From positions 49,578,290-49,642,289 of the forward strand of contig NC_065541.1 in NCBI RefSeq assembly GCF_932294415.1: a stretch of 64,000 nucleotides of DNA. Reading direction: 5' to 3'. Positions 7,074-59,418 of the stretch are shown one piece after another. This DNA is from Quercus robur. Lineage: Eukaryota; Streptophyta; Magnoliopsida; Fagales; Fagaceae. A program made the position numbers and the translations under genes. Under the pieces are notes generated by a model that saw only the letters and a program-made list of their open reading frames with translations, was not told where the DNA came from and ran no database searches. The stretch's first letter is position 1. Each line of letters opens with the position of its first letter.

Positions 7074-7121
7074 GTCAATTGACCCATAAAAAAAAAAAAA
7101 AAAAAAAAAAGAGTCAATTGA
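7074..7121. mobile_element. Poly(A) micro-insertion with target duplication
   Basis: The 9-bp direct repeat GTCAATTGA (7074-7082 and 7113-7121) flanks CCCAT, about 23 A and GA. This fits an insertion made of almost nothing but a retroelement's poly(A) tail. It lies just downstream of the LINE end but has its own target duplication. Confidence 0.6.
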
Positions 7122-8570
7122 AAAAAGAAATTTGAAATACTCTTCCAGAGACTCTTAGCAGGAAAATGATGCCACGATGGCAATCCAATTGATGCCATCA
7201 TTAATTTTGCCAATTAAACGCACACAGATTAATAATATGTGATGGTTGAGATCCACTGCACAGGGTCTAGCCTCCAACCGCCACAGAAATGTTGTGTGGT
7301 TGTAAAGAGTTAAGATGCTAGTGTAATGCCTGACTTGGCTTGTTAATGTTCAAACACTCAGAAGAAAGGTCTTTGGCTCTTACGTATGAATTTGTTTTGA
7401 GGCTAGACAACATATAGATTATCAACTTTTTGTTCTAGATTTACAATTAATATTCTGATTTGGATTTATAGCTAAAGGTTGGCTCCCTAAAATTCGTCCA
7501 AGAACTGAGTCGATTTGGTTTGGTCAAATCAATTATCTTCCAACAATTTTCAGAAAAAGAAAAAGAAAAAGAAAAGAAAACCCAACAATTAGCTGTTTCT
7601 TAACAATAAGTCGTAAACATGGTTGGTCTAATTTTTATAGCATTTTATTTCCTCTTTGAATATAGGTGTCCTTTTCGACAGGTTGAGTGTTATAAACGCA
7701 GGCTTAATTACTTCGCAGCTCAATTGGAGAAACAGGTTTTGTGTGAGTTTTACTTGATGTCCTCAACCAAAAGTTCGATTTTAAAGATGAATCAAGCAGT
7801 AGGAAAATACTTGTTGCACCACACATTTATGCATGGAAATTGTCCTGAAATCAGGACTTGAAGTTATGATTTTACTTGGAAATCGTGACTTGATGTTATG
7901 TTTTTAGTGCAATTTTTATGTGTGTAATAAACAATGTTTTTTTTTTTAATCTAAAAAAAAAAAATTACTTTAATTGTTACCGTGAAACATCCGAAGAGAC
8001 CCACTGAAAGAAATCTGCACTTTTTTACTTTTTTTTTTTTTTTTTGGGGGGAACTTTTTGGACCAATTAGGTTAGATATAGTTGTCTTGTCTATGCTTTC
8101 CAGTACAAATGGTCTTCGTAACTTTATTATTATTATTACAAGAAACTCTATTACTCTACAACTCACCATTGGTTGAACCCTTAAAAAATAGTTTTTAATG
8201 ATCAGAATAAAAATATAAGATGTAGTACAAACTTTATAGATGCCAGAATATAATAACGAAATTTAAAATTTAAATTGATAAAAGGTACTAACTTTCTAAC
8301 GATCACATCTTATATGGGTAGAACGTTAACGTTGAATAGTCGTTTACTTTCATATTCATAGTTCTTCACTTCCTTGATAATTCGGTAGTTAAGAGGGAAA
8401 GAATTTGAACCATCAATATTAACCACCTGAACTACAAGACTCTTAATATTCATTATTTATTTCTTCTTCATGTTGTACTCACTATCTTTGTTAGAGGAAA
8501 TTTAACACACACAACTAAATATTGATTAGATCATTTTCAAGGTTCAGTGTAGTACCCATTTTTATTCAGT
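7122..8570. other. Intergenic, no feature recognised
   Basis: No credible gene is seen. There are A- and T-runs (7936-7964, 8032-8046) and purine-rich low complexity at 7550-7580. The longest open frames are short, AT-biased and resemble no family I recognise. Confidence 0.5.
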
Positions 8571-8872
8571 GAGCGTTTGGATTCAGCGTTTCCGATGAAT
8601 CCCACGTCTCACGTTTTCCTTTCTTTTTTTATTTTTTGCTTTCACGTGTTTAAGGGAGCAAAATTTACTGTTCATGAGACAAATTTTACTGTTCACATAC
8701 TGTTCCGTCATTGTTCACACACTGTTCATCATTGTAGCAGCACTGTTTATACATTAAAAAATATTAAAAATGGGTCCCACGGTACTATTTACATATTTAA
8801 AAATTATTTTGCTACAATGTTTTCAGTTTTCAGTTTTCAGTTTCAGTAACAATAAGTTCAATCCAAACAGAT
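8571..8872. mobile_element. MITE, TTTGGAT-ended family, copy 1
   Basis: This ~300-bp element has inverted ends (GCGTTTGGATT at left, AATCC AAACAG at right). It shares internal blocks with 48407-48680 and 62868-63063: a 'gggtcccac' block, TGTTCACA repeats, ATTTAAAAATTATTTTG and a CAGTTTTCAGTTTTCAG stretch before the right end. It has no coding capacity. Copy 2 has a 3-bp duplication (ATA), which points to PIF/Harbinger-type (Tourist-like) mobility. Confidence 0.65.
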
Positions 8873-10090
8873 CCTCATATTACTTTTTATGGTATTACGG
8901 TTAGGTTGATCAATGGTTGGTTTACTAATCTTCATTCATATCCCACAAACTTGCATTATGGTTTTTTCTTAACTACAAGGTTCTCTTTGTCTCATGTGTA
9001 TCTTGATTTCAATTGGGGTAGATTAAACACCCAAATTGGCTATAATGTTCCATACTCTTACTAAGAGTTTAATTGGTGGAAAGGGAATGAATACATGGTT
9101 ATATGGAAGGATATTTTGTGATCTATAGACCAACAATCATTAAGATTTTAAGGTGTGATTAGTCATTTATTTATGGTTAATTCTATTACCAAACATAACT
9201 TAAAGGGAGGTCTTGAGCACTCCTAACCTAAGAACAAATCATAATCATGTCTCAAACTAGAAGTACAAGTTTAGAATTTTAGTTACATGTGGGGAAGGCA
9301 ATAAGCACACCCACAAAACTAGTCTTACGACATTACAACATTTTAACTGACTCTTGGGGTTTTATCTAGTGTAAATTAAAATGTTGGCTTTTAGCTTTTA
9401 GGGTGAAATGATTGATTGTGAAATATTAGAAACAAGAATGATGCAAATGGCGGCATCAATGGTTTTAGTGTGATGTGTGTTTGAAACCTTGGGAGGACGA
9501 ATTTGGGAAATCATTTTAGAAAAAGGGAATATCATTGTGTTATCATTAGGGAAAATTTTGTTTTATCATTTTTATTTTGGGTTAGTTTCTCAAAAAAAAA
9601 AAAAAAAAAATTTTTTTTGGGTTAATTTCGTCACATTTAAATATTTAACCTTAATCTATGGCCCATTAACTAATATCTAAATTAATGGTCACGGTAATAA
9701 TTCAATATAATTTTTGAATAGTTAAATAGAATTATATAAATTCAACTGTTGTTATAGTTTTAGTCTTTATGATACTCAGATGAGCAGGATATTTTACTCC
9801 TTTTCTCTTTGATAAAAGATTTCATTCTTTTAATTGAGTTCAAGAAATCTCCTCTAACTCATTAGATGTAGAATCTCTTCTAACTCACGAGATAATGATC
9901 ATATGATCATCGACGTGTTAAATCACCTACATCATTTAAACAAGTTACCTATGATTATTAAATATATATTGTGCGAACAGAGTACATATAATACTCATTT
10001 CAGCTACCACTAAAAAGATTTGATGAGAAATGTGCAGAAGAGAACCCAAAGAATAAGGTCCAAACTAATTGATAAAACCTGAAAAACCCC
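8873..10090. other. Intergenic, mostly featureless
   Basis: Apart from the tail insertion at 9575-9629, nothing coding is recognised. The last ~150 bases, including an AT-rich TATATATT near 9962, are the probable promoter side of the gene starting at 10127. Confidence 0.4.
9575..9629. mobile_element. Poly(A) micro-insertion with target duplication
   Basis: The 15-bp direct repeat TTTTGGGTTAGTTTC / TTTTGGGTTAATTTC (9575-9589 and 9615-9629, one mismatch) flanks TC, 19 A and a few T. It is interpreted as an ultra-short retroelement tail insertion. Confidence 0.55.
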
Positions 10091-10092
10091 GA

Positions 10093-10124
10093 AGTCCAAG
10101 TCCAAGTCCAAGTCCAAGTCCAAG
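10093..10124 (+). repeat. AGTCCA hexanucleotide tandem repeat in gene leader
   Basis: About five copies of AGTCCA lie immediately before the ATG at 10127. In an overlapping frame they would encode Ser-Pro repeats. They most likely sit in the 5' untranslated leader of the small gene and could vary in length between individuals. Confidence 0.75.
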
Positions 10125-10126
10125 CC

Positions 10127-10621: not shown

Positions 10622-11494
10622 TTCTAAGGCTTCCTTCTTTCTATGGTGTAATCAATTATTTTATGAATTTTGTTTTATAATTTGATAGTAACAACTCTGA
10701 GTATGGGGTATTTGAATTCTGGTTTTCTTTGTAAAGTAGAGCAAGTTATGTTATCGTATGAATATAAGAGACCCTGTTATCAAAGGTTTGGTATTTTCTT
10801 TTTTAATTTGGTTAGTTTGAACCTAAGAGACTTTATTTAGGGTACTGTACCTCTGTGTGGTAATGGTGTTTTATCTGTTTTGTCATGTTATAATTTTCAA
10901 ATATTACTGGCTGTATCGTATCTATACGGATACCGTGTCCGTGCACCTTTGAACCCATGTCGAAATGGCAGTTATTATGTATATGGCATTACTGTTTTCT
11001 TCTGTTTAATAATTTGGTTGTTTCATGTTTGCTAAGATCCTTGCAGCTTAATGTACCATGAAAGCTGTCTAATAATTATGAAACAGAGCAGAATGGAAAA
11101 GTAAGACTCTCAAAATAATAAATGGCAGCAGAATGTTGGCAAAGGAAAATGTATTATTGATATTTTAGAGAGTAACTACTACAGTGTTGCTAAATAATTG
11201 AAATGGAGAATGCATTTGTGGCAAGAGTGATGAAATGGGAGAACCAACAAGTGTCTTATTAAATAGTGCAGGTGGTTAGTGCAGTCCTTGTAAAAGGAGC
11301 TGCTAGCATGCTAGTCATAAAAGACAATATGCAGACTTGACAATAAAGGCGTAGAGGAACCTAATAAATCACCAGACCTTAATCCACTCACTATGAACAC
11401 ATTGGTTCAATTGAAAGTCCTGCAAAAGGAAATTGTTAGTTTTGGCAAATTCCGTGTCAAATATTTCGAAAAATGTGATGGCATATGTTTATAT
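10622..11494. other. 3' flank of the small gene and intergenic DNA
   Basis: The first ~200 bases are T-rich and include AATTATTTTATG, a likely 3' untranslated and polyadenylation region for the gene ending at 10621. Beyond that no gene or repeat is recognised. Confidence 0.4.
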
Positions 11495-11528
11495 GACATT
11501 TTTTTTTTTTTTTTGATAAGGACATTTT
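11495..11528. mobile_element. Poly(T) micro-insertion (reverse LINE tail) with target duplication
   Basis: The direct repeat GACATTTT (start 11495; second copy 11521-11528) encloses about 12-14 T followed by GATAAG. Reverse-complemented this is CTTATC plus poly(A), close to the 3' terminus of the LINE that ends at 18970 (CCTATC plus poly(A)). Confidence 0.65.
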
Positions 11529-17700: not shown

Positions 17701-20700
17701 ATTTTCAAAGAAAGTGGAAAGCCAACAACAACCAAGTTTGTCTAGCGTGATTTGCTAAGTTGCATGCCCATGCTTGAGTCCTCACATGCGAGCCAAATTC
17801 TATGACTGAGCAAGTTTCATGTGCTGAAACTGTTACAACTTTGGCTGAATAGGATGGTTATAGAGGCGAGATATGGGAATGTTTGGTGCACGAAAAAGGA
17901 GACAAGTGCTTATGGTGTTAGCCTGTGGAGATTCATTAGAAGTGGCTGGTTAAATTTTTAACTCCTTCTGTATGATATGGGGGATGATACTAGAGTGAAG
18001 TTTTGGAAGCATGTGGGGTGTGGGGATTGTATCCTCCAAGAGGCTTTTCCGGAACTTTATTGTATTAGTAGGGCAAAGGATTCTTCAGTGGCGGAGGTTA
18101 TGTGTTGGTCTGCTGGGAGGATTCATTGGGATGTTCAATTTTGTCGACCACCACAAGATTGGGAACAAGAATCTTTTGATCTGTTCATGGATATGGTCTA
18201 CTCTCGACTGTTCGACTGTGCGGGGGTTTGGTCCTGATAAGGTTTGTTGGAAGCCAGCAAGGAGTAGATGTTTTGAGGTTAGGGGATTCTATCTTTTTTT
18301 TTTTTTTTTTTTGATAGGTAAAAAATTGCATACAGGGGATTCTATCTTTCTTTCTACCCTCCTCTCTTATCCTTCCCTTGGAGAATAATATGGCAATTGA
18401 AAGTCCCTCCAAGGGTAGCTTTCTTTTCATGGTTTGCTTCCTTAGGTAAGATTTTAACAACAGACAACCTTCGCAAAAAACGTGCTAATTCTTGATTGGT
18501 GTTATATGTGTAAGATTTGTGGGGAGTTAGTGGATCATCTTCTGCTTCATTGTCCCATAGCTTGTGAGTTGTGGTTGTTGGTGTTTTGTTTGTTTGGAAT
18601 CAACTGGGTTATGCCTCATAAGGTTATTGAGTTGTTTGAGTCTTGATAGGGTAAGTTTGGGCGACATCGCAATATAGATTTTTGGAGACTTGTGCCTCAT
18701 TGCTTGATATGGTGTATTTGGTGTGAAAGGAATGCTAGAAGCTTTGAGGGATGTGAACATTCTACGCTAGAGATTAAGTCTTTTATCTTGCACACTCTCC
18801 TTAAATGGAGTGTGACTTTGTCTCATTCTTCTTGTTTTTCCCTTCCTGTTTTACTTGATTGTTGTAATTTTGATTCTTGATTTGCGCCCCCATAGTACAT
18901 TCCCAATGTACTTGTGTTGGCTTTTTATTAATAATATTTTATGTTACCTATCAAAAAAAAAAAAAAAACTACTTTGGCTGAAAACTTTTGCTATAAATAA
19001 AGGGTGAGCAAGAGAGGTAGAGGTGGGGGGAAGATGTAGGCAATAGAGTGAGAAGCTTAGGTGTTGAAAAGCAAAGGTGCTTCCTCTTTGTGTGAGTAAC
19101 AAAAGAAAGAGAGTAAGAGTTTGTTGAAACTCTTGGCTAAATACAAAAGGGTGTTCTCTATTGATTTGAGAGAGAACCAAGGGTGTATTTGGGTTGGGCT
19201 TGTGAGAGTGCCTTCAAGCTATTGTTGCAATCTCCAAATTATAATGACACTTTTTTGTCGCCTTCCGTGGACAAAGGCATATTGCCGAACCACAAAATTT
19301 CTTGTGTCATGTTTTCTCTTCTCTCTTCTTTAACCTTACATAAACAGATTATTTCACAATTTTTCAACAATAGTTTTTATAGATTTATATCAATGGATGT
19401 AAAAGTCAAATATCGGTGAAGGACCAGGTAACCTATTAAAAAACTGGATTTATACACAAATTTTTTCAAGTAAAACATCTTAATTATACACAATTTATTT
19501 TTGATAGATAGATTTATACACACAAGTTATTTTTGATAGATAGATTTATACACATAAATTATAACCCTAAAGCACATAAATAAGAGCTTGTCTAGGGTCT
19601 TGACCTACATAAGGGGGTTCCTTTCTATCATATTTGCTGAGCTCACCTGCTAGAGGTGTAGATTGGGTGTTTGGTTCAAGTCATCCCTCAAGATTTATGA
19701 TGTCTGAAAGAATTCCTAGATATTCCCTTGTTTGGTTAAAAATAGTTCAAGAGAATCCAAATCCAAATGCCGATACCCACCAAACCTCACTTTAGTGTGA
19801 ATATGGATTTCTCTTCATCTTTTTATTTTTATTTATTTTTATATTATTAAGTTACATAGCAATCGCAAGGGGTAGCACAATTGACTAGGAATCACATCTT
19901 AAGAATCAAAAATCACAAGTTTGAATCTTTCCTTGAAGCCAAAACTCAAAAGAAAAGAAAAAGTTACACAAGCACCTGATGGATTTTAAACCCATGAGCC
20001 CACCCCACACCTTGCTCTTAAAAGGGGAAGGGGTGCCATTTGAGCAAGAGCTCAATGGGGTGAATATAGATTTCCTTTGAAAAAGATCTATCTCTATCTC
20101 CTCTATCTCTTTGCACTCTACCCGATTGGTGTCATTTTACTACATGCTGTTGGAACGCTTTTGCTTCATTTGTGTACACCATAGTGACATTGATCTTCAA
20201 TTGGACATAAGCTGGTCTTAATCTACAGAATTCTTTGTGTTTCAGATTTATTTTGATATCTTAAATTTTTTTTTTAAGCTCAATTTTGAATACCTTGCCT
20301 TCATTAAAATCTAGCATATCTAAATTGGGCTTATAAGATAGTAATGATACTAGTTGCCACAAACCATTTAAAAAAAGGATAGATAGTCATGATATCTAGT
20401 TATCTTTTACTTGAATCCAATTTGATTTAATATTTTGATATATTATTGATGTTTTAAAACAGAATTAAAAGATATTATGTATTTTAAGTTTACTTTGAAC
20501 AAGAATATTTTGGGATGCATAAATAATTCCTATAAATAAACCAAACATAGGGATCTCATATTTTGAAGAATCTTATAAAATTCTTTATCAAACTAATGGT
20601 GGGCATGATTATATTCCAAGGAAACTAAATACCGACAGGCATCCCCAAACCAATCACTTCATCAAAGAATTCAAGTATTCAACTAATACCACAACTCTAC

Positions 20701-23419: not shown

Positions 23420-24208
23420 ATGAATAATGAAGAAAGCAAAAAAATCCTTAACATTTCCTTGTCCAAAGCCAACCTTCTTGAACAAAAAGATAGATTAGTT
23501 TGGCCCTTCTCCCCTGATGGTCAAAATCAAACAAGAATAGCCTACCAGATTAGTTTGGCCCTGACTTTTACTTGGAAGATTCTTCGTGAAGCCATCCCAT
23601 CCCTCTCAATCTGTCCTCCTCCTCAAGAAGGCATTTTGGCAGAGGACTCATATGTGTGTGCTGGGGCGACACAGAGACATTTGACCACTTATTTATGCAT
23701 TGCCCTTTCACTAAAGTAGTATGGTCCCGATTACAATTAGGAGTCAATACCTTTTTGGCTCCATAAGAGAAAAAATCACCAAGTGGCTGCTAGAGAGTTA
23801 AGTATGATTCACTGCTCATGGAAAGCATTCTGGATCTACTCATAGCTCTCTGGTACATGCTTTTAATATTGTCAATGCAGGTGCAACACAAAATGGAGAA
23901 TGCATCATTCCACCAACCACAACAATTAGGAGGCATAAAAAAGATTAGCAGATCTTGATCTAAGTAAAAGTTGATAGGCATATCATATGTTTAGAGGAAG
24001 GAGTGGCATTGCTCTCATAGGCAAAGACAGAGAAGACAACCAACTCTTTAACGGAGGACAGAGTGTGGTAATTGAGGATCATCGGCTTGCAAGATTAATA
24101 GCACTCAAGGAAGCTCTCATTAAAGCTACAACAATGGACTTCTGCAGAATGGTTGTTTTGACAAATAGTAGAGAATCAAATGTTGTGTTAGCGGATTGCA
24201 AGAAATTA
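23420..24208 (+). mobile_element. LINE 3' remnant (zf-RVT and RNase H-like)
   Basis: One frame at 23650-23730 gives the zf-RVT pattern CVCWGD...DHLFMHCPF. A later frame at 23987-24208 gives an RNase H-like fragment: HRLARLIALKEALIKA and VVLTNSRESNVVLADCKKL. The pieces are out of frame with each other and interrupted by stops. A Tourist-like MITE (24209-24348) sits inside the RNase H part. Confidence 0.7.
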
Positions 24209-24868: not shown

Positions 24869-26624
24869 CTAGCTTTAATTTTACAACATATTGCTTTCAT
24901 CCATAAATTTTGCTAGAATTTCATTTTTTTTTCCTCAAAAACTTAAAAAAGTTTTTCTTTGTCCCTAGACATTGAAAGTGTTACACTCTTTGTCCTTTTG
25001 TCCACTCTTGTAAACTTATCCTTTTTGACTAACTAGGTGACACTATTCTAAAGATTAAAAAATTTGACATGTTTGGCATGAATCATTACATTTTAAAAAA
25101 TAATGACACACATGAGATTAACATGTAGAACAAAAATATTGGTCACGTGTACAATATGAAAGATGTTTTAAAGTTTAATGAAAAAGAATTTTTTTTAATA
25201 GTTTAGGGACAATTTAAAAAAAAATTAGAGACAAAAAGCAAACTTCATGCAAGCTTTATGAATGAAAACAATATTTTTGCCTTTCAATTTTAGTAAATCT
25301 TGGGTAATAGAGTTTCACTTAAAGTAAATCATGCTAATAACTTCAATATATTTATAATTTTAATCATAAATGGTGAATGTGTGACAATAACTAATTGATT
25401 GGTAATTATTTAATTTTACAATTATATTTTACATATACCAGAGATCTTATAATTTCACAAGAATAAATCTTTTGCATTTGAGTATATGTTACTCACAACT
25501 TATGCGAATTTTAGTTAATAGTGACTTATTGAGGGAAAAAAAAAAAATTCATGGTTTTAATTATTATTTTTTGTGAAATTTAGGGGTTTAATTTGAAACC
25601 ACCCAAAGTTATAGGTGATTATGTGATTACCAATTTTTTTTTAATAAATGATATCCATTTGGCACAATGAGATATGTAGCCACTTTTTTTTTTTTTTTGG
25701 AGAAATAAACATATACACAAAAGGGAGAGTGAATGAGTTTTAACATAAAACACACCACAAACTCCATTCAAAAGCCATGGTAAATTTTAAAGGAGTGTAA
25801 GACAAGTTATTTTACACACAATATACTCTTTTAAGCAATGTGGGACTATTATCCAACTACGACTTACAAAATTCAACTTTTATTATATAGTATATGATAT
25901 AATATGATCTAAACATGAAATATATATATATATATATTTATATATATAAATTATAATTTCATAATTCTTATATAGCATATTAGAAGTATTATTATTATTA
26001 TTATTATTTGAGAAAAGTATATTAGAGGTATTATAATTTCACATGATGTTTTTTTCTTGTTCGTGTCTAGATAGGTTTTAATCGCAAAATTTTAAAATTT
26101 TTGTAACTTTTAATTAATATGGACTCTATGAGGGCATTAAATGAAACGGCTTAAAAATTTTATGGCTTTAATGAAACCTTATTGAAATTCAAGATTTAGT
26201 TTAATTAAATCCTAAATTTAAGTAAACTAAATCCTAAACTACGTCTCTCATGACATAAATTTTCATTTCAATGGAATATTTATTTTTGTTACTAAATTTG
26301 TTAATTTATTTGTTCATAAACTACCCTAATGGGCCGTGCTATCCCAAATGAGGGAGTGGATTGGGCTTATTGGGAAGATTTTGCTAATCCTTGATCCATC
26401 AAAAGTTATTTACCAAAAAAGAAAAAAAAAAAAGAACGGTAAATACTATAACAAACATTTTGTTACGCAAACATTGCCCAAAATGGAAATTGATCTCTAT
26501 TTAGGTTAGAGGAACAATGACATGAGAAGGGAAGTGAAATTTACATTTATTTAATATGCCAAGAAATTAAAATTTGGGCCTCCTAAGGTGAAATCTTGAT
26601 TTCAGCTAACAGATTTCACCACTG
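24869..26624. other. AT-rich intergenic DNA downstream of GULLO copy A
   Basis: This is AT-rich with a TA microsatellite at 25921-25941, an ATT microsatellite near 25990-26007 and several A/T runs. No gene is recognised. The last ~110 bases are shared with the flanks of the GULLO ghost near 39.3-39.45 kb. Confidence 0.5.
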
Positions 26625-28889
26625 TTAGCTGACATCACATATATTTATCTTAGAAGTTATACGAGTACAAACCTTTGCATCCTTGTATACTTTGCCTAGT
26701 CTACAATAATAGCCCTTCTTGGGCGCACAATGAATATCTTCTGAACATATACACAACCCCTCCAATGCACACCCCTCCTTAGCTATGGTTACACCATTTT
26801 TCAATCCAAGAATTTGGTCTGTCCATGCACTAGAGAAGAGGCCAAAGGGATCATACACCTCCTTAACCTTCAAAAATTCTCTAGCATTTTTGTACTTGTT
26901 GATTGTTCCATCAAATGCTAGGTTTCGATTCTTTCCCCAATGTGGCAGTGCTCCATACTTGAAAAGAGCGAGTTGCTCAACTTCTTCGAGTATGTCTTCA
27001 TAAAGCCTAGGAGTCATGGGGTTTTTGCTTCGATAATAAGTGATATCAAAGTCAACTGCATCTTCTTGTTTGCCCAAATAAGCACTCGAAGCCTTAACAT
27101 AGCGCATGAGAATTCCGTTATACAATTCTACACCGCACATTGCTTTAGGCTCCATTTCAATTAACTTCTGCACATCTTGGATAAAGCTCTTAGCCAGGAA
27201 CAAGCTAATACTAAATGTCGTTTGGTGAAAAAAAGCACCATTGACTCTGCGATCCCATGCACAAGCTGAATTGTGATGGCTATCTAGGCATGTTCCTGAT
27301 GCTTGAAGGCGGTTGTGAAATCCAACAACGGGATAGCCCGTAAAGTGGTCATCTGTAAGTCCAAAATCAAGAATTGTTTTTAGAATTGGGGACAAATAAC
27401 AATCAACAACTAATGCAAATAACTTAATTTGGTAGTTTTTTAAGCACATGAAAATAGCAATACCATTGTTACTTAAACCATAAGCAGTATTCAGGAGTTT
27501 TGAAGTAATTTTTTTTGCACTGGCGCACTTCCCATTGGCATAACTCAGGTGCTCTAGAAGTTCCTCTATTTTAAAAAGCACAAAACAAACACTGTCAAAA
27601 CAATTACACTTTTATTACAATACCAAAAATCAAATGGTAGTTCTAAAGTAGGTAAATGCTTTTTGGTTAACCTAAGGTTCTGATAGAGCCCAGTTCGAGT
27701 GAAGGTATGGGGCGGAATGAGATTGAATTGTATAGACCATTGCCAGATGTGTTTGTGGAGACACGATCGTCGATACGATAGACTGCCTTGCGTTGACTAG
27801 GATACCAAATTATATCCGCAAACTCATGTTGATGACCAAAACTAGCCACTTGATCTCCCAAGTTTGAATCATTTTTTGTCAAGTAGATGATGGATCTCTT
27901 GAAGAGGGGTTGTAGTTTTAGAGTGACCTGCAAAGTGAGTGTTTTCCACTTTGAGCTTTCACTTCGACAGTTTGACAGATGATAAGATGAAGAGTCGACT
28001 GAATTTGTCACCCAAATCTTTATTAATGCTTTAGATGCAAATATGAACTAGACTTATAATTGGTTAATTATAAAAGCATTCTCTCAAGAATCCCAAAAAG
28101 AAAGTTTGGCTTGATTAACAAATTCCAGCAAGCATTTTTCAAGCATTTTACTAAGATCAAACTTCCTGGATGACCCAGAAATTCCCTTTTGTCATATATA
28201 TATCAAGCTACAAATCATACCTGTGAAATGACTCCAAGAACTCCAAGTGAAACTTTAGCTGCATTGAAATCTTTGTCACCATCTTTGAGCCTCCGAACCT
28301 TTACATAACCATCTTCAGCGCCACCAGGACTAACAATTTGAAGTTCCAGAAGGTAATCATGGACCGAGCTTCCGTTAGCCCACAATGTGCTACCGTGTGC
28401 ACCAGTACTCAATAGGCCCCCAATTGTCAAACCCCACCAATATGGTGTATAAGGCAAGGCTAGACCGGCCTTGGCAGCCTCATTGATTAGCTGCCTCAAT
28501 GTCACACCGCTCTCTATGGTCATGGTCATAGCTTCAACATCAATCTTTAACATATGATTAAGATACTTGGTGCTTATTAACAGCCCTTCTTGGCCGTCTG
28601 GACAAACTAGCTTGGGAATGCTGTGTGAAAAACATGTTGCCACTTTCATTTTCCTTCTGTTCTTGGTTGCTTCTGCCATTATTGAAATGAGCTCTTGCTC
28701 AGTGGTGGGGTACGCCACCTCAGCTGCTCGACAAGTGCTTCGATCCGGGAAGGCACCATAGGAGTTTGTGATGGTACAGTTTGTATTCTCTGATGAGCAT
28801 TTGATGGGTTCCTCTGGGGGGCTACAACTATAACACGCAACAAAGATTAACAGGAAGACACTAGTTGTTTTTGAGCGTAACAATACCAT
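26625..28889 (-). CDS. GULLO-like: L-gulono-1,4-lactone oxidase-like flavoprotein, copy A (4 exons)
   Basis: Exons 28221-28889, 27672-27927, 27464-27565 and 26625-27352 splice with GT-AG junctions into 1755 nt: 584 residues plus stop, typical for plant GULLOs. The family oxidises L-gulono-1,4-lactone to ascorbate; physiological activity of plant members is limited, so substrate is inferred. Residues 1-22 form a signal peptide (SVFLLIFVACYSC), implying secretion. The FAD-binding (VAO/PCMH) domain spans ~50-220, with SGVTLRQL (~127-134) and [12 protein letters not shown] (157-168). The C-terminal ALO domain carries the conserved HWGKN at ~480-484. A Cys-rich tail ([20 protein letters not shown]) follows. 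The start is the first Met before the signal peptide. Intron 1 is only 293 bp, against 3965 bp in copy C. All reading frames are intact. Confidence 0.93.
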
Positions 28890-28945
28890 GTTTTGGAGTT
28901 TGGTGGTGCTTAATTTTGTGTTGGTAATTTAGCAATATAGGTGCT

Positions 28946-30159: not shown

Positions 30160-30732
30160 GGGGAGCTTTATTATCCTAGGAGACTATGAAAACAAACAAA
30201 AATTCAAACCCAATGCTAAATCAAATTTATCTACACATTATGCAAATTACATCTCAGATAATCCAGCAGTTGAATCCAGCTTTTGCAAGAGAGCATCAAC
30301 ATAAACAAGGCAATCTCGGAATCTCCTTCAATCTGCACCTTTGAGGCTTCCATGGAATTTGCCACTTGTCACGCCCATTTAAAAGCATGTAACTCTGCTA
30401 CTGATGCTGGGATAGAAGAATTAGTCCTGGATATTGCAGCGGCTAATACAATCCCTTCATTGTTCCTAGCAACAACAGTAATCACAGCCCCAAAAGAATC
30501 AATGCCTAGCATCATAATTCAATTTTGTAGCCTTACCTGAATGCTTGGACCATCTGGTGATTCGGGTTGCTTGAGCAAGGGAGGACACGAGCTAGTGAAT
30601 TCAAGTGGTCTTGCATATCCAGGCCGATTTGGAGATTTATTCGCTGCAAGTTTGGGATCAATCTCTGGGAAAAGTAATAAATTTCTTGGCTTCCAGATTT
30701 TATCAAGCATCAAGGCTGTGAACATAACAAAA
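30160..30732 (-). mobile_element. LINE RNase H-like remnant, interrupted by an LTR element
   Basis: On the minus strand 30300-30540 reads GAVITVVARNNEGIVLAAA and ASVAELHAFKWA, an RVT_3 RNase H-like domain. The stretch 30640-30730 reads LMLDKIWKPRNLLLF, the usual segment between zf-RVT and RNase H. Stops are present. The coding sense continues across the LTR element into 32601-32690. Confidence 0.7.
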
Positions 30733-39299: not shown

Positions 39300-39830
39300 T
39301 CATTATTTTGTTTACGGAACAATGACATAACAAGGGGAATGAAATATACATTTAGTTAATATAAAAAATAATTAAATTTTATTAATTATTAAAATTCTTT
39401 ATTAATTAATATTGAATTTTGATCCCTCCTATGGTGAAATCTCGACTCCTTCCCTGTTCACATGAATATTAGAAGTTATACGAGAGCAAACCTTTGCATC
39501 CTTATATACTTTTCTTGGTCTACAATAATCCTTGGTGATGCTTTTAACAAAAATAACATGCATCTTGATTTTTTTTTTTGTTTTGATGGGAACATGCATC
39601 TTGGCTCATCAACATTGTTGTTGCAAATATTTATAGTTGAGTGTATATAGCATGGAAGCTACCGGATTTGTTCATAAATAAAGGAATTAAGATTTTTTAT
39701 TATTTTATTTATTTATAGGATAAGTGAAGAAAGGTCTTTATTTCTTCATAAAAGCATCCGCAGTTGGCATCGACGTGATAGGCAAAATAAATATGGTACA
39801 AAGACAACGTACAAACTATTCCATTTCATA
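39300..39830 (-). pseudogene. GULLO copy B: gene ghost retaining only its two ends
   Basis: The part 39461-39529 matches the last ~25 codons of copies A and C (minus strand; compare 26645-26712 and 45874-45934), and 39300-39460 matches their 3' flanks. Next to it, from ~39530, CCTTGGTGATGCTTTT matches copy C from ~10 nt upstream of its ATG. Homology then continues through the leader, a TATA box (CTATAAATA at 39628-39636) and the block GTTGGCATCGACGTG, matching copy C around 51819-52015. Nearly the whole transcribed body has been deleted. A 23-bp poly(T) insertion (39568-39590) lies in the remaining leader. Orientation is the same as the two intact genes, so three GULLO loci once stood in tandem. 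Confidence 0.8.
39555..39603 (-). mobile_element. Poly(T) micro-insertion with 13-bp target duplication
   Basis: AACATGCATCTTG (39555-39567 and 39591-39603) flanks a 23-bp insert of A, 11-12 T, G, TTTTGATGGG. Reverse-complemented it is CCCATC plus an A-rich tail. It sits in the leader of the GULLO ghost. Confidence 0.8.
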
Positions 39831-45392: not shown

Positions 45393-45456
45393 AACTAAGA
45401 ACATGATGATGATTATCCAAAAAAAAAAAAAAAAAAAAAAAAACTAAGAACATGAT
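45393..45456 (+). mobile_element. Poly(A) micro-insertion with 15-bp target duplication
   Basis: AACTAAGAACATGAT (45393-45407 and 45442-45456, exact) flanks GATGATTATCC plus about 23 A. The bases before the tail (TTATCC) resemble the LINE terminal motif CCTATC. Confidence 0.9.
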
Positions 45457-45515
45457 ACATTGTCATAGGTTTTCTGAAAAAAAAGAAAAAAGAAAAAAAA
45501 AATACATTGTCATAG
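45457..45515 (+). mobile_element. Second poly(A) micro-insertion abutting the first
   Basis: ACATTGTCATAG (45457-45468 and 45504-45515, exact) flanks GTTTTCTG plus an A-rich tail with two interspersed G. Its left duplication starts at the base after the previous insertion's right duplication ends. Confidence 0.88.
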
Positions 45516-45812
45516 ATTTGCCAACACTAACCTAATTGTTCCCACTACCACAAACATTCACAAAACACACGCCCACAAGCATAAGTGCCCATAAAAACTG
45601 AACTAAAGGAGCCCCAAATAGGAACGCTTGAAACTTGTAAACTTCTACACGGATCACACGATCAGGTTTCTTCCCATGTATCTCTCACAGCATCAACAAC
45701 CCAAAAAAATAAAAAATTCTTCCCATGTAGAGTACTAGAGAACATAATAACTTTCAACAAATCACAAGAACATTGTTATAAATTGAAAAAGCAACTCAAA
45801 AGAAAATTAATA

Positions 45813-48800
45813 TTAGATTTTGATCCCTCCGAAGGTGAAATCTTGACTCCCCCATTGTTCTTCCTCACATATATTCATCTTAGAAGTCACACGAGCACAC
45901 ACCCTTGCATCCTTATATACCTTTCCTGGGCTACAATAATAGCCCTTTTTGGGAGCACAATGAATGTCTTGTGAGCATATACACAACCCTTCTAATGCAC
46001 ACCCCTCCTTATCTATAATGACACTATTTTTCAATCCAAGAACTTGGTCAGTCCACTCACTAGAGAAGAGGCCAAATGGATCATACACTCTCTTAACCTT
46101 CAAGAATTCATTAGCATTTTTGTACTTGTTGATTACTCCATCAAATGCTACATTTCGATTCTTCCCCCAATGGGGCAGCGCCCCATACTTAAACAGTGCA
46201 AGTTGCTCAACTTCTTCTAGTATGTCTTCAAATAGCCTAGGAGTCAAGGAGTCTTTGCTTCGATAATAACTGATATCAAAGTCTATTGCATCTTCTTGCT
46301 TGCCTAAGTAAGCACTTGAAGCCTTAACGTAGCGCATGAGTATTCCATTATAAAGTTCTACACCACACATTGCTTTAGGCTCTAATTCAATTAGCTTTTG
46401 AACATCTTGAATGAAGCTCTTAGCCACGGACAAGCCAACACTGAATGTAGTTTGGTGAAAGAACTCACCCTTAACTCTAGGGTCCCATGCACAAGCTGTG
46501 ATCAATGCATCATTAAGACTATCTAGGCAGGTTCCTGATGCTTGAAGGTGGTTGTGATATCCAATTACAGGATAACCCGTAAAAAGAATACCTATTAGTA
46601 AAAAAATATCATAAATTTTGTTATTTTGAGTTGGAAATATCATTATCAGCCACTAACGCAAATAATAATTGTAATTTCTTAGCACTGTTTAGAAGAAGAG
46701 GAAAATAACAATACCATTGTTACTTAAACCATAGGCAGTAGTCTCGAGTGCTAGAATAACCGTCTCTGCACCTAAGCACTTCCCATCCGCGTCACTTAAG
46801 GATTCTTGAACTTCCTCTAATTTAAACAAGCATAGAACATACTATTTCAAAACCATTACACTTTTGTTATAATAATAGCTAGCAAAAATCAAACGGTAGT
46901 GCTAACCTGTGGTTCTGACAATGCCCAGTTCAACTGAAGCTGTTGCGCGGAATGGGGTGAAATCATATAGACCATGACCATGTCCATGTCCAGGTGAGTT
47001 TGTGTTGACTCGGTCGTCAATACGATAAACTGCCTTGCGTTGACTAGGATACCAAGTTATATCACCAAACTCATGTTCATTGCCAAAACTAGTCACCATA
47101 TCTCCTAAGTCCGAATCATTTTTTTTCAAGTAGGTGATGGATCGTTTGAACATGGGTTGTAGTTTTAGAGTGACCTGCAAAGTGAGATTTTCTCAATTTG
47201 AGCTTTCATTTTGACCATGTTGTGACATTGTCTCATATATCAATTAATAACAGCTCAACAATTTATGTCTTTGAAGCCTATTACATGTGTCTTAACCGAG
47301 AGTGATGAAACATAAGCAACATATTTTCAACGACGCAATCCTATAGATGATGCCTAGCATGCACGGTACCATGGTAGATAACTTCCGAAGTTTTTGCCAA
47401 TTCGTAGCTTGCGCTCTCTTTCCCTTGATTTTCTCTTTTCAAAGTTTTTGCTCATCTCATACAACACACGTAAGACTGACATGTGAATTGAGTGCATATG
47501 AAAATTTTGGTTCACCCCTTTAGAAATATGTAATTATGTTTATATTAAATAATAGAAAAAAAATTATTGATGTGTATACATAGTAAAAATGATGCATATA
47601 ACATAGCCTATATAAGAAAATTACAATCTGTTTCTAAAAAATAATCAGAAATATTAATATGTGGTGTTATACTTTCATATAATTCAGCAAAAAAAGAGAG
47701 AAAGAACTCTCATATAATTAAAAAATTAAAAATATAGCATGCATATAATAAATATACAAGACATACAGGGGGGAAGAAGTGATCTATCTTTAATCGGTCC
47801 AAAACAAAAGGAACTATAATTTTCTAATTTATTATTATTTTAAGTGGAAGAGACCTATCTTTCCTCTCGCTTCCCTTCTTTGGTTATTCCCTTTCTTTTG
47901 GGGAATCCCTGTATAATGTAAGACATGATTGATCTTTAGACTTAAGGCTTAGGACACTTACGATTTGGTTTAAGGCTCCCCATTAGGAAAAGGCTAGAAA
48001 TTGTGGGTAAATAACTTGTTTCACACATGCACCAAGAAAATTGTAATTGTATATTCAATAAGATTTAGGCTAGCTCATGTGAAAGTTGCATAAGTGAAAC
48101 CAAGACAATTTTGTAACTGTAGATTCAATAAGATTTAGGCTTATGGGAAAGTTCCATAAGAGATACCAATAAAATTCTAGTTGGAATGCAAGGCCAACCC
48201 CTAAAGGAAGAAAGTAGAGTGGCTATAATAGCGGATTCTAGGTTTTGTAGGGTTATACCAGCACATAATAATAAGTATCAAGACTAATGCTTTGATTGGT
48301 ATTTCCAAATAAGTTTTTTTGAGAGCCACAACATTTGTTACAACTTGATAAAGTGGTTGACTGTGAGTTGTGGATAATTATCACTTTCATATACCACTCA
48401 CTCATAGGGTCTATTTGGATACAACTTATTTTTGCTGAAACTGAAAACACTGTAGCGAAATAATTTTTAAATGTGTAAATAGTGCTGTGGGACCCATTTT
48501 TGATGAAAAAATTGCTGAAAAGTGTAATTTATGGGACCTGTGAACAGTGCACGGGTGCATTGTTCACAGTTGACTTGTCAACAATTGCAGGCTGAACAAA
48601 AAAAAAAAAAAAAAAAAAGAAGAAGAGAAAAACGCTGATTACAAAACGCAAACGCCAAATTAATTTGAATTCAAACGGGTATATAGTCAACCATTTCATA
48701 ATTATGGTAAAAGTTGTATCTTTAAAATTTCTCTTTCACAAATATATTTATTTTCTTTTTACTACTTTCATGAATTCTCTCACTAATTAAACATAAACTT

Positions 48801-51800
48801 TAATTTTTATTTGTTTACAATAAGAGTGCCAAATTACTGTTAATGACTAATTTCTCCCTAATAGCTTGAGACTTTTAAGTGGGTAAGAGTCAACATCCCA
48901 CTTGCAGGATAAATTGTCAACATTATCCGCTCAATTTTCTACATAACTACACATGTAAACAATCTCTCTCTCTCTCTCTCTCTCTCTACAAAAATTAAAA
49001 TTGGAAATTAGATTTAATTTTTTTCCTTCATCATGCATCACATTGTCAAAGCTAAAGTACAACTCATTTTTAACTTCATCCGCTCATATATATATATATA
49101 TATATCATGGAATTTTATTGGAATACTTGTAGTAGGATAGTTATTTTTTTAGATGAATTTTTGCAAAATTAAAAATAATAAAATCATTAATTAGATCAAT
49201 TGGATTAACAATGTTTTGAATTAAAAAGATGTTATCAAAACTTAAACAAGAAGATTCTCAAAAAACTTTGCATCTTAAGAAACAAGAAGCGTTGACCTGT
49301 AAAATATAAAAAAGAATAATTTAATTGATATTTTTTTTAAATTCTCATTAAAAATTATAAATTGAAATCTTGTTTCTCAAAAAATAGAAAAAAAAAAAAA
49401 ATTCTCAAAGTATATTAGATGGACCTAATGCAACTCAATTCCTATCATTTATATTTGGCAATTGATGCTGAATGTTTTGTACCTCAACTAATTGACATTT
49501 TTTGATGTTTTCAATTGAAACATTAGGGTTTAAACATTAGCCATTCGCACCTATCATGAGTGTTATTGATTTTCAATGTTGGGTTGAGACTTGGGATGTG
49601 TAACACATTCATGAGAAAATCTATCATGCAACAAATACATGTATTCACCCCCTCACATGGGGTGTGTATATATATATATATATATATATCCTATATGTAA
49701 TACTAGCTCCACGTTCACTGGTTAGGCTAGAACACACCTACCATGTTAAGTGGAATAATATATCCTTCCATTATGGTTCCAGATTTATTCTTTAATTTAT
49801 TTCTAATATTTCTATTCTACATTTTGTTTTATTTTGATTTTAGTCCCTTAAGAAATATATCTAGAGGCCCACTTTGAATTGGGGAAAGCAGAAGAAGTTG
49901 AAGAAGGATGGCAAGTCAATCAAGATTTCATTAGTCCGCTACCTTATGTAAAAGTAGATAAGTGCATTGTACCTGAGTCTGTGAGATGGTGGTTGCTTCT
50001 TTTTTTTGTTAATTACTTAAAGCAACGCTACAATACAATTATTTTTACTACTTTTTTCATAAAAGGCGAACTGACTAATATAACATTTTTAATTACCTAT
50101 TAGTTCATCATCTTGACAATTTTGAAATTTTTTTTACTCTAAACTGATTGATGATTACTAAAGTTTTTTTATTTATTTAGTACATATATACAAACGATAA
50201 CTACTACATATGCTAATTACCTCTTTAGACATGCTTTTGTCCTATCTTTCTCTTATGATCAGTTTGAATGAAGAGGAGGAAGTAAAGTAGAGTTAGTCAT
50301 TAGAGTCTATTTAGTTCTTGGAAAATTTAAAGCTTGAAAAAAAAAAAAAAAAAAACTCCGCAGAGAGTTTTAATTTATAAGAATTAGAGTTTCAAAAAAA
50401 AAATTTATAAGAATTAGAATTTAAATTTATACTGACCATTAATGTTGATTGGGCTGAAAAATGTCCTCGACCCTTGATATTAAGCATAATCATTTTCTTT
50501 TATAAAATTAGCTCTAGATAGTCATTTTTTAAAAGACAAAAGAAAATTTTAAAACATATGTAACAGTAGTAATTGTTGATTAAAAATACAAGAGATGTGA
50601 TAATTTTTCTAAAAAAATTACTGTGAAATTTGTCATTTTCAAATAAAACATGAGACTCTAACATTTTCGTGTCTAATGATAAAGAGAATTTTGTCCCAAA
50701 GAAAAGAAATTTTAATTTTTACGAACTTTAAAAAATTAGCAATTCTCATCGTGCATTCGTGTATATGGAACAAGTTTTTTTTAACAAATAATTATTACTA
50801 TTATTTATTTATGGAGGTAGAAGAAGAAGAAAAAAAAAAAAAAACATTAACCAGTTGTTTCCTTGTAGTTGGATCTCTCCAAAGAAGTATTCTTATCACA
50901 TCTCAAAAAATTAAGACGGAATCTATTACAAAATTTCTCAAACATTACACTGCGATCAAACTTCGACGAACAGAAACACCTTTTAGCAAAAGTTCGTGTA
51001 TATGGGATGAAATATGATGTGCAATTAATTGAGACTTACCACTTCAAGAAAGTATACCAAGTTAAGTGTTAAATATCAATATGTAAAAAAGAAAAGAAAA
51101 GAAAAAGAAAGAGTAAGTATTCCAGGTTATAATACAGACCTGTGAAATGACTCCAAGAACTCCAAGCGAAACTTTAGCTGCATTAAAATCTTGGTCACCA
51201 TCTTTGAGCTCCCGAACCTTAGCATAACCATCTTCAGCACCACCTGGACTAATAATTCGAAGTTCCGTAAGGTAATCATGGACTGCGCTCCCCTTGTCAC
51301 GCAATGTGCTACCATGTGCACCCGTGCTCAATAGTCCCCCAATTGTCAAACCCCACCAATATGGTGTATAAGGCAAGACCAGCTCAGCCTTGGCAGCTTC
51401 GTCGATTAGCTGCCTCAATGTCACACCGCTCTCCACGGTTATCGTCATAGCTTCAACATCAATTTTTAACACATGGTTAAGATACTTGGTGCTTATCAAA
51501 AGCCCATCTTCCCCGTCTGGACAAACTAGCTTGGGAATGCTATGTGAATAACGCGTTGCAACTTTCATTTTCCTCTTGTTCTCGGTTGCTTTTGCCACTA
51601 TCGAAATGAGCTCCTCCTCCGTGGAGGGGTAAGCCACCTCGGCAGCTCGACAAGTGCTTCGATCAGGAAAGATACCGTAGGAGTTTGTGATTGTGCAATC
51701 TGTGTTCTTTGACGAACATTTGATGTGGTCCTCAGGGGGACTACAACACACAACAAAGATTAAAAGGAAGAAACAGCTAAATTGGAAAACTCCGCGTATG

Positions 51801-51808
51801 AATACCAT
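45813..51808 (-). CDS. GULLO-like: L-gulono-1,4-lactone oxidase-like flavoprotein, copy C (4 exons)
   Basis: Exons 51140-51808, 46904-47174, 46715-46816 and 45813-46591 join with GT-AG junctions into 1821 nt: 606 residues plus stop. Exon phases are identical to copy A (26625-28889), its tandem paralog. Residues 1-23 form a signal peptide ([13 protein letters not shown]). The FAD-binding part has SGVTLRQL and [12 protein letters not shown]; the ALO domain has HWGKN at ~488-492 and the Cys-rich tail [15 protein letters not shown]. Differences from copy A are a GHGHGHG insertion in exon 2 (from a short tandem repeat), three extra residues near the exon 4 start, and a C-terminus ~17 residues longer ([10 protein letters not shown] onward). 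Intron 1 is 3965 bp, against 293 bp in copy A. The role is inferred as for copy A: secreted aldonolactone oxidation toward ascorbate. Confidence 0.93.
47675..47719. mobile_element. Possible micro-insertion with 10-bp direct repeat
   Basis: TCATATAATT (47675-47684 and 47710-47719) flanks 25 bases with an A7 run that is not terminal. Less clean than the other tail insertions; could be replication slippage. Confidence 0.4.
48407..48680. mobile_element. MITE, TTTGGAT-ended family, copy 2
   Basis: Ends GGGTCTATTTGGAT and (reverse) ACCCGTTTGAATT, with ATA on both sides (404-406 and 681-683 of 48 kb). Shares the GTGGGACCCATTTTTGATG and GTTCACAG blocks with copies at 8571 and 62868. A poly(A) run lies inside at 48599-48618. 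Confidence 0.72.
50372..50418 (+). mobile_element. 13-bp poly(A) insertion with 17-bp target duplication
   Basis: AATTTATAAGAATTAGA (50372-50388 and 50402-50418, exact) flanks GTTTC plus about eight A. It is the smallest of the tail-like insertions. Confidence 0.7.
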
Positions 51809-51885
51809 GTTTTAGAGTTTTGGTGATGCTTTAAATTCTTCTTGGTAATTTAAGTTGCATCTTAGTTCATTTACATTGTTGTTGC

Positions 51886-53062: not shown

Positions 53063-53087
53063 TCTTAATGTGATAATAAATTAAAGA

Positions 53088-53797
53088 ACAATCTCTAATT
53101 GAGAGGTTAATATAAAATATAAGGACACCACTTAACCTAAAAACTTAAATATTTATGTTTGAGCTCAACTATGTTATATTAATAACTCACTCTTGTTATT
53201 TTTTTTAATGTGTGACTTTATTCACACACATATACCCAACAATTTTCCTCTCATGTGTAAGTCTTTACCTCTCTATGGGCTATGACTAAGTCCTATTAGC
53301 TTCTCCTTGCTTTATGATTTTTTTTTTCTTCATCAACACATCATCCATGGTCTTCTCATATGCCATCCATGATACCACAAGTCAACCCCACATGCTCATG
53401 AATGGGAACTCAAACTGCACTTCCATATCCATGGAAATCCGACGCCATACCATGATCTAGAACCATTGACAATACTATTTTGTTAGGTCTTTCTTCAGGA
53501 TTGTTTGTGTGAGCCCTTTAGGCTTACCTTGTCCCTGCTCCAACTATGAAAGGGATCTTGAACACCTTGCCACATTTGTTGCACACAGCAATGGGCTCTG
53601 ATACCATTGTGGAGACTTTAATTGAGAGGTTAATATAACATATAAGGATATTGTTGAGAGGTTAATATAACACATAAAGACATCACTTAACCTAAAAGTT
53701 TAAGCCTTAGAGTTTGGGCCTAATTATGTTATATTAAACACTCTCTCCTATTATTTTTATTCAATATAAGACTTCACTCGCACCTATATACCCAACA
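53088..53797 (-). mobile_element. TRIM (miniature LTR retrotransposon)
   Basis: Two short LTRs, about 53088-53242 (155 bp) and 53607-53797 (191 bp), share GAGAGGTTAATATAA, CACTTAACCTAAAA and the end TATACCCAACAA. Just inside the right LTR is GCTCTGATACCA (53595-53606), the reverse complement of the tRNA-Met-type primer site, so the element runs on the minus strand. A purine tract (GAGAGGAAAA on the minus strand) abuts the left LTR. The ~360-bp interior has no coding domain. LTR sizes differ by a short internal duplication in the right copy. Treated as a fossil. Confidence 0.82.
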
Positions 53798-56934: not shown

Positions 56935-57150
56935 ATCGGGCCTTTTGATATTGCTAGCGAGAATTGGGCTTTTAGTGTTGCCAATAAAAATTGGGCTTTT
57001 GATATTGCCACTAAGAACTGGGTTTTTTGACATTGCTAGTGAGAATTGGGCTTTTAATGTTTCCAATGAGAATTGAGTTTTTTGATATTGCCAGTGAGAA
57101 CTAGGCTTTTAATGTTGCCAACGAAAACTGGGCTTTTCAAATATTGCCAA
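56935..57150. repeat. ~32-bp minisatellite, about seven copies
   Basis: Degenerate units built on GAATTGGGCTTTTGATATTG, alternating GATATTGCCA and AATGTTGCCA forms, suggesting a 64-bp dimer. On the minus strand one frame reads repeated SGNIKSPI / IGNTKSPI, but upstream and downstream context is non-genic. Confidence 0.85.
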
Positions 57151-57564
57151 GCATAATTATTATTGGGCTTTAAAAAGAATGAGATTTGAACTCATATAAT
57201 AAAGTAATTGGGGGATGAGTTTGAATTATAGGCTTCACAAAAATATTGGGCCTTATATTGTTTTATATTTGTAGCCTAATTTTGTGGTTGCAAGAAAAAT
57301 AGTTGTGGGCTAGCATAATAATGGGGCAAAAATATTTGGAGAAGCCCAATAATTTGTTGGTGATGTTTGAAAATAAATGGGTGGTATTTAAGTAAAAATA
57401 GGTGTAAAAAAAAAAGTATCCTAACAGAGATAAACCCTTCAAATTCCCCATATATTTTTATATGGAATGTGAATTTTGAAAATCTAATTGTTGGATTGCA
57501 TGTTCTTATTATATCTTTCATGCTTGCAAAATTTTAAAAAGATCAAAAATCAATTGCTATGTTC

Positions 57565-59200
57565 TTCATAGTTACTAACAATCAAAAGAAAAGAGTAATG
57601 TAAAAGATAATCAACTATATCCTTCATGTTTGCTTTTAAAAGATAATCTCAAATCCATAAGGTTCCTTGAATCCACAAGGAAATAGAGGTCTGGAATCCA
57701 CCAGAAAATAGAAAGATAATAGTCTCAATTTAATTTATTGATTAAATAATGTTAAAAAAACGTTTATAGACTTAGATGCCTATTTAAAGGCTTTGTAAAA
57801 CTTGACATATAAGAAAATATATTCTAAAACATATCCTAATTAATATCTAACCATTATGGAAACCAAATTTGACTTTAAAAAAAAATAAAAATTAAAAAGC
57901 ACCTAAAAACAAGCAAATAAAAATCTTGAACCTAAAATTCTAAAAATTGCCATTAAAAATCAAAATTAACAAATTATAAAAATTAAATAGTACATTATGT
58001 CCTAAAGCGTTTATCTGTTTGTGCTTTTGTAATGACCTAAAGTTGTTGTGGAAGCAAGAAATTAGCCCTAGCTTAATGACTTGCCTATAATCACAATTAA
58101 TTTTTATTATGGGCTTAATACAATCCGCAACGAGAGATTTGAAGAAGAAACAGATAATTCTTTGCTTTATAAAATTGTGTCAAAGACTTTATTCATACGA
58201 TTATTTTTGTTACATTCCTTACTCAATGTTTCGCTCCTCTCTTTTTCTTTCTTCTATCTTTCTACTTTAATTAACTATCCAAAAACTGCTTCATTTATCT
58301 GTCTTCTTTCTTTTTATACTCTTCCTCTTTCTTCTTCTTTATCCTTATTCTTTGCTTAATTCTCTTCATTTTCTTCTCCAGCCTATGCCATAGTAGGTGT
58401 TGTCCTAGTATAGTTGGGCAGCCTTTTGTCCCATCAGACTCTTCTTTTCTTGAGGTTATGATGAACAAATATTTTTGAGACCTTTTGTTTTATTCTGATA
58501 TGTTATCTATTGCATTAAATGCAACTGTGTCAAGTGGGTTGCTGTGAATTCATTAGGAAGATCTTGAAGGACATCCTTAGATATTTTGCGCACACCCTAG
58601 CGGGATGTCTTTGATAGCTTGAAACATGGATTGGTGTGGGCAATGTGATAAATTGGCTTTTATATATCTTGGGCGACTCCAATGGTTTACTCATGCTCAG
58701 ACCTAGGGTGATGGGTCCTATTAGGTCAGATTCTGAGGTTTTAGATCTTGAGGGTGTTTATGATGACTTCTTGTTTACCTTTGAGCTCCAGGGTAAGCGT
58801 CTTCATAATGGGGCCCCATATCTTGGAGCGATATGTTCTAGGCCCGTTCTAATCTAAGGCCCAGTGCTTACTTGGGTTTTATGTACCACTTCCCTATAGT
58901 TGTCATTTGATCCCAGCTACATACATGTGGACATAGACAATTATCCACCGTTTAGAACCACAGAAGAATATAAGAAAGTTGCTGAGGAGCAATTGGTCCA
59001 TTTTGCTAATTCAAAGATGACAGTCATATATTCTTTCTAGTCAATACCATCTTTAAGAGTCTTGACCAATGGCAAAGTTCAATTTAGGGGGTAAGATTAA
59101 AAGTAAAAATAATCTAAATCTGCTAATCAACAACAAATTGACAATAAAAATGAAAGAAACAGCTGTAAACAAATGTAATTACAAGTATAGGTTTCGTATC

Positions 59201-59240
<40 letters not shown>

Positions 59241-59282
59241 AATTCATAGTTACTAACAATCAAAAGAAAAGAGTAATGTAAA
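57565..59282 (+). mobile_element. 1.64-kb block between exact 40-bp direct repeats, poly(A) at one end
   Basis: The 40-bp sequence 57565-57604 (begins TTCATAGTTACTAACAATC) recurs exactly at 59243-59282. The inserted-looking block between ends with about 35 A (59204-59238) plus CCAA. It contains a fragment of the LTR family of 30733-32600 (57640-58001, antisense) and ~1.2 kb of unrecognised sequence. A retroposed insertion with an unusually long target duplication is one reading; recent duplication is another. Confidence 0.55.
57640..58001 (-). mobile_element. LTR fragment of the TGATGTAGGACA family
   Basis: Reverse complement of the LTRs at 30733-31095 and 32207-32600: it shares CTTGAATCCACAAGGA, CTGGAATCCACCAGAAAATAG and TAGTACATTATGTCCTA. 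Both extreme ends are missing, so it is a fossil LTR piece. Confidence 0.78.
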
Positions 59283-59356
59283 TACACAAAATTTAGACAT
59301 CTAATTGATTCATTAAAATAAACTGAGAAAATAGATTAATCTAAAAGTATTAAGAG

Positions 59357-59418
59357 TATAGCAAATACTGTTTATAAATTATTTAAAAAAAAAAAAAAAG
59401 AGAGACTATAGCAAATAC
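59357..59418 (+). mobile_element. Probable tail-type micro-insertion, 12-bp direct repeat
   Basis: TATAGCAAATAC (59357-59368 and 59407-59418) flanks TGTTTATAAATTATTT, ~15 A and GAGAGAC. The run is not quite terminal, so confidence is lower. Confidence 0.5.

Follow-up and report, generated by a model that had tools for sequence, protein, structure and literature searches.

A-tailed micro-insertions in a 64-kb stretch of the oak genome as probable scars of target-primed reverse transcription

A 64,000-nt stretch of contig C37 of the Quercus robur assembly (785.7 Mb in 42 contigs), hereafter the window, contains nine micro-insertions that consist of an A run and a short stub between direct repeats. 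We interpret them, with a probability of about 0.87, as retrotransposition scars of target-primed reverse transcription (TPRT) that copied little beyond the tail of an RNA. The reading follows from three features taken together, namely a tail on one side only, target-site duplications (TSDs) of 8–17 bp and the existence of an empty site. In the proposed sequence of events, an endonuclease, presumably encoded by a long interspersed nuclear element (LINE), would nick one strand, and the tail of a polyadenylated RNA would be reverse-transcribed from the nick. Synthesis would then halt early, after the tail and about 2–28 more bases, and cutting of the second strand 8–17 bp away followed by fill-in would leave tail and stub between TSDs. 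The mechanism itself is already known; the point of interest is the density of its scars in this plant genome.

Micro-insertions and their empty sites

Six of the nine micro-insertions have their tail on the plus strand. At 7074..7121 a 9-bp TSD (GTCAATTGA) encloses a 30-bp insert of CCCAT, A23 and GA, located 36 bp past the 3' end of an element termed LINE B. At 9575..9629 a 15-bp TSD with one mismatch flanks TC and A19 (followed by TTTT); an alternative parse with an exact 10-bp TSD gives the insert GTTTCTC plus A19. Two further insertions stand back to back, the second target beginning no more than 2 bp from the end of the first's 3' repeat: 45393..45456 has a 15-bp TSD around a 34-bp insert (GATGATTATCC plus A23), and 45455..45515 a 14-bp TSD around a 33-bp insert (GTTTTCTG plus A8GA6GA9). 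The site at 45668..45729, missed by the preliminary description of this DNA, has an exact 13-bp TSD and a 36-bp insert ending in A7TA6, and the one at 50372..50418 a 17-bp TSD and a 13-bp insert of GTTTC plus A8. The other three are on the minus strand: 11495..11528, with an 8-bp TSD (AAAATGTC) and an 18-bp insert of CTTATC plus A12; 18281..18349, with a TSD of 12–16 bp and a 37-bp insert ending in TTACCTATC plus an A run, located in the zf-RVT region of an element termed LINE A; and 39555..39603, with a 13-bp TSD and a 23-bp insert (CCCATC, AAAAC, A11, T) in the relic of an L-gulonolactone oxidase-like gene.

The TSDs of all nine events (9/9) measure 8–17 bp, one of them with a mismatch, and lie within the range of roughly 7–20 bp used to recognize TPRT. 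The preliminary description had reported eight main sites with direct repeats of 8–17 bp, and all eight were recovered where it had placed them, seven with exact repeats and 9575–9629 with one mismatch in 15. Its range of insert lengths, 13–41 bp, held at the lower end and came down to 37 bp at the upper. At all eight main sites (8/8) the A run, read in the sense of the tail, lies within two bases of the second repeat copy, the placement at 9575 assuming a 19-bp repeat with two mismatches. Two looser cases that it had added, both on the plus strand, are unproven, since the tail does not abut the second copy: at 47675..47719, with a 10-bp direct repeat, CAGC-A7 stops 14 bases short of it, and at 59357..59418, with a 12-bp direct repeat, A15 is followed by GAGAGAC before it.

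Empty sites had been proposed as a check in relatives or other haplotypes; copies within the same genome provided them for three of the nine events, strongly for 18281 and more weakly for 50372 and 39555. Seven related LINE loci were compared across the 18281 site. Two of them, L003 and L007, span it without the insert and with a single copy of the target; L002 has a deletion adjoining the site, and L004, L005, L006 and L008 do not align across it. A Pfam search placed zf-RVT just downstream of the insert (6.5e-8), and the upstream piece matched no family; the reading frames on either side of the insert differ, and joining the flanks yields one open frame. For 50372, a paralogue near C37:49668 kb, about 40 kb away, carries one target copy. 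For 39555, a paralogue at 51.82–51.89 kb likewise has a single-copy target, and its alignment scores 71 against the joined flanks and 63 against the sequence as it is. The insertions at 45393, 45455 and 45668 gave no alignment to paralogues, the 7074 flank had no other strong genome match beyond the end of LINE B (40 of 338 candidates scored), and the genome search with 9575 gave short matches to stub and tail only.

These copies bear on slippage, in which repeats already in place, or produced by a tandem duplication, would have enclosed a short A run that later expanded. A/T runs are indeed common in this AT-rich DNA, with 64 of at least 9 nt in the window, and one event of the random sample described below (CCATGGTTTT in stretch L015), which sits in a six-copy local array, may belong here. 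The single target copies in the paralogues of 50372 and 39555 speak against such an origin, and for 18281 it is excluded by the empty site in L003 and L007. We therefore regard slippage as a most improbable general explanation.

One-sided tails in the window and in a random genome sample

The one-sided position of the tail was evaluated against a mirror control, a scan of the reversed, uncomplemented sequence that preserves composition, A runs and repeats and changes the tail side alone. Among the 64 window runs of at least 9 nt, six had an exact repeat of at least 9 bp directly next to the A run on its 3' side and an insert of 8–40 bp, and the mirror had none. Repeats of at least 8 bp with inserts of 8–60 bp were found at 10/64 runs against 1.7 expected (mirror 1/64), and repeats of at least 13 bp at five against 0.22 (mirror 0), the expectations being derived from 15,179 anchors distant from A/T runs. 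When runs of at least 8 nt were admitted with repeats of at least 9 bp, eight forward and two mirror matches resulted, one of the latter being the 9575 locus itself; 100 dinucleotide shuffles with the runs held fixed had a mean of 0.42 and a maximum of 3. A looser scan gave 14 forward and six mirror matches. Four of these six (50374, 45456, 9575 and 9577) represent three loci already listed in the forward direction, with inserts almost entirely of A, and the fifth (49374) has its tail in common with a weak forward match. Several weak forward matches, among the 14 of the looser scan and among the 11 of the scan with runs of at least 8, were excluded from the event counts. Shuffles, distant anchors and mirror counts together rule out an origin by chance.

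For a view beyond the window, 160 random 10-kb stretches were drawn before inspection from the then-known spans of 11 of the 42 contigs, a draw that is not uniform, and the first 25 (250 kb) were analysed. Repeats of at least 9 bp with inserts of 8–40 bp occurred at 9/212 runs in the forward direction and at 0/212 in the mirror. The excess over shuffled controls that the preliminary description had called for is present, with the nine events compared with a mean of 0.65 and a maximum of 3 in 40 shuffles. In window and sample combined, the tail abuts the 3' copy at 15/276 runs, one of them doubtful, and at 0/276 in the mirror. The doubtful event is that in the L015 array; at each of the other eight sample events the repeat is present exactly twice in its own 10-kb stretch. 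Eight events per 250 kb correspond to 32 per Mb. Extrapolated to the whole assembly, and with no chance matches subtracted, this amounts to about 25,000 (Poisson 95% range about 11,000–50,000); the window, with six events in 64 kb under the same rule, is denser. The earlier suggestion that such insertions are common in this genome is thus borne out by the sample (8–9 of 212 runs), and so is insertion by TPRT, by the 15-to-0 ratio of tails together with empty sites for three events.

In 20 of the stretches a comparison with 47,702 anchors distant from A runs was also made, with inserts of up to 60 bp. Repeats of at least 9 bp numbered 12 against 5.2 expected (P 0.007). Close direct repeats are frequent in the sample even where there is no A run, so that the argument there rests on the mirror control.

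Several observations weigh against TPRT as the source of these insertions. In the anchor comparison, repeats of at least 12 bp numbered four against 3.0 expected (P 0.35), an excess that is not significant because of these frequent close repeats, and repeats of at least 8 bp numbered 12 against 7.4 (P 0.07). The 8–40-bp bin behind the nine-to-nil count was chosen after the first sample results had been seen; sample inserts of 41–60 bp gave three forward and four mirror matches, and the full range of 8–60 bp with repeats of at least 9 bp gave 12 forward and four mirror matches in the 25 stretches. The AT-rich paralogue of 50372 scores higher against the sequence as it is (135.5) than against the joined flanks (128), with one target copy in both alignments. 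The TT/AAAA site of the mammalian L1 is only loosely matched, in one of nine window events (tt/AATT at 50372); from this misfit of the TSD starts we conclude that the endonuclease preference differs from that of mammalian L1 or has blurred. Finally, the motif YYATC, which precedes the tail at four of the nine window sites, is absent from all nine sample events, where stubs are diverse. The TSD lengths of 8–17 bp are nonetheless consistent with LINE products, and LINE A displays the same anatomy at 1121 bp.

The same counts address repair of staggered double-strand breaks, in which fill-in of overhangs would create the repeats, the A-rich filler between them stemming from polymerase slippage or from captured complementary DNA. 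Close direct repeats without an A run do occur in the window, and there may thus be a background of duplications of the filler type. Repair offers no reason, however, for a filler A run solely at the 3' copy (15 versus 0 in the mirror), nor for a filler that ends in a LINE 3' terminus, as at 18281. Break repair accordingly appears unlikely, if somewhat less so than slippage. Direct repeats of 16–19 bp around 13–51 bp without an A run stand at 23492–23562, 48053–48141 and 53622–53672 and may be filler or tailless insertions.

Source RNA and insert size

With TPRT as the preferred mechanism, the stub in front of the tail can be compared with candidate source RNAs. The 18281 insert ends in TTACCTATC before its tail, identical to the LINE A 3' end; the family copies L002 and L003 end in GGTACCTATC and ATTACCTATC, with small differences from it. 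This is the only clear LINE 3' end among the nine window events; the other three YYATC sites show a partial likeness. The preliminary description had compared the stubs with the end of the LINE at 18970 and had treated CTATC, TTATC or CCATC before the tail as a recurring signature. The derivation is clear for one window event in nine, and the signature, found at four of nine window sites and none of nine in the sample, did not generalize. Among the 4-mers preceding 246 runs of at least 9 nt in the window and 20 stretches, AAAG, TCTT and ATTT were most enriched, not YATC, which together with the sample rules out YYATC as a general mark. A Fisher test linking the motif to TSDs in the window gave P 0.0037 (3/4 versus 7/87), on hand-entered counts and for a motif picked post hoc.

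Other stubs recur. TTCAGC precedes the tail of sample events in L020 and L022 and of the unproven case at 47675, and AGTTTC is common to stretch L016, 50372 and 9575. The 9575 sequence TAGTTTCTC-A19 has six other genome matches at 100%, in which the matched letters are mostly the A run; an arbitrary 9-mer before A12 had five genome matches and one in the reversed control. TTCAGC was also seen before A12 in stretch L026, where the scan found no repeat, and before A7 in L016 and L023.

The templates may, alternatively, have been mostly 3' ends of short interspersed nuclear elements (SINEs) or mRNAs acting in trans rather than LINE RNA. This proposal overlaps with the reading given above, the source RNA being the sole difference. 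It draws on the diversity of stubs over 18 events (nine each in window and sample) with one clear LINE 3' end, on the relaxed 3'-end recognition proposed for some plant L1 lineages in the accessible text of PMC3747384, and on the L1-like retrocopies reported from dicots (PMC4838847, accessible text). The recurring TTCAGC and (A)GTTTC stubs and the six perfect TAGTTTCTC-A19 matches hint instead at a few recurrent source families. We consider mostly trans templates a tentative possibility with a substantial claim. As stubs vary, several source families are likely: the RNA was presumably that of a LINE A-family element for 18281, and for the rest the sources were probably several LINE, SINE or mRNA 3' ends.

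The preliminary description had further supposed that reverse transcription aborted after the tail alone, as a class of its own. Insert sizes, compared at equal stringency (exact repeat of at least 12 bp, tail abutting), indicate otherwise. The 25 stretches hold four inserts of 8–40 bp and five of 41–300 bp (two of 41–100 and three of 101–300 bp), with none of either in the mirror; above 300 bp, nine forward and 11 mirror matches amount to noise. Three to four of the five longer inserts are sound, among them those of L020 (82 bp) and L018 (166 bp); a single L016 locus accounts for two stacked ones, and the fifth lies within the L015 repeat array. In the window micro-insertions predominate: the same stringency gives five of them against LINE A alone, and allowing a 4-base offset adds a 1638-bp insert at 57.6–59.2 kb as comparator. 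Since inserts of 41–300 bp are roughly equal in frequency in the sample, the micro-insertions look like the short end of 5' truncation, and a separate abortive class is unsupported. The L016 locus, at about 4093–4320 on the minus strand, shows two A-tailed inserts (reaching 83 and 195 bp) with one common target repeat, another instance of stacked tails after the pair at 45393–45515.

Host elements, known systems and significance

LINE A (17838..18982, plus strand), the host of the 18281 micro-insertion, is a 5'-truncated LINE whose 1121-bp insert lies within a 12-bp TSD (ACTTTGGCTGAA) and whose 3' end, on the plus strand, is TTACCTATC plus A16. The 3' part of LINE B (6230..7038, plus strand) encodes an RVT_3 domain and ends in TTTCTCATT plus A12. 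A copia element at 816–6223, inserted in LINE B, severs it on the 5' side and has long terminal repeats (LTRs) 99.4% identical. A cluster of L-gulonolactone oxidase-like genes occupies 26498–28931, 39304–39635 and 45805–51852 and also C37:49661500–49668260; one member is a relic that retains a 3' part and the 5' flank. At 57565–59282, the 1638-bp insert ends in A35 plus CCAA and is flanked by perfect direct repeats of 40 bp, which is long for a duplication made by TPRT; it holds a relic of an LTR-like family with other members at 30730 and 32207.

Comparable events are described from human disease genes. The accessible text of PMC3219598 reports one simple poly(T) insertion in NF1 exon 25 alongside three simple poly(A) insertions known from earlier, and suggests as their origin an Alu, an L1 or a processed pseudogene, severely truncated and inserted by the L1 endonuclease. 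There, too, the insert is almost pure tail; the human tails, however, measure 60–178 bp at sites that fit the L1 endonuclease consensus, whereas those of the oak window measure about 8–25 bp at mostly non-consensus sites. The likeness to 5'-truncated LINEs, such as LINE A and the short mouse L1 3' fragments described in accessible parts of PMC11084082, lies in a 3' end and tail between TSDs after a premature stop; the stub here, of about 2–28 bp, is too short to name by similarity. Dicot L1-like processed retrocopies (PMC4838847), as far as the source is accessible, share the poly(A), the TSD and an L1-like mechanism and also often depart from TTAAAA, but carry recognizable gene sequence, which the micro-insertions do not. 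As far as titles and the openings of abstracts show, the open-licence literature searched includes no plant survey of insertions made up of poly(A) alone, and the accessible portions of PMC4859970 and PMC12016303 contained no count of tail-only insertions.

It is conceivable, at not quite even odds, that tail-only retrotransposition is a major unannotated class of mutation, with tens of thousands of events too short for repeat annotation, which would seed a measurable share of all long A/T runs (6/64 in the window, 8–9/212 in the sample) and thereby give rise to small indels that break genes as well as to poly(A) microsatellites. Because the mirror control is built in, the test for one-sided tails requires a single assembly and is applicable to any genome. 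Should the rate apply to the whole genome, retrotransposition in this plant would be undercounted by repeat annotation, the origin of some mononucleotide microsatellites would become traceable, and one class of indels, of 30–70 bp, could be assigned to a mechanism.

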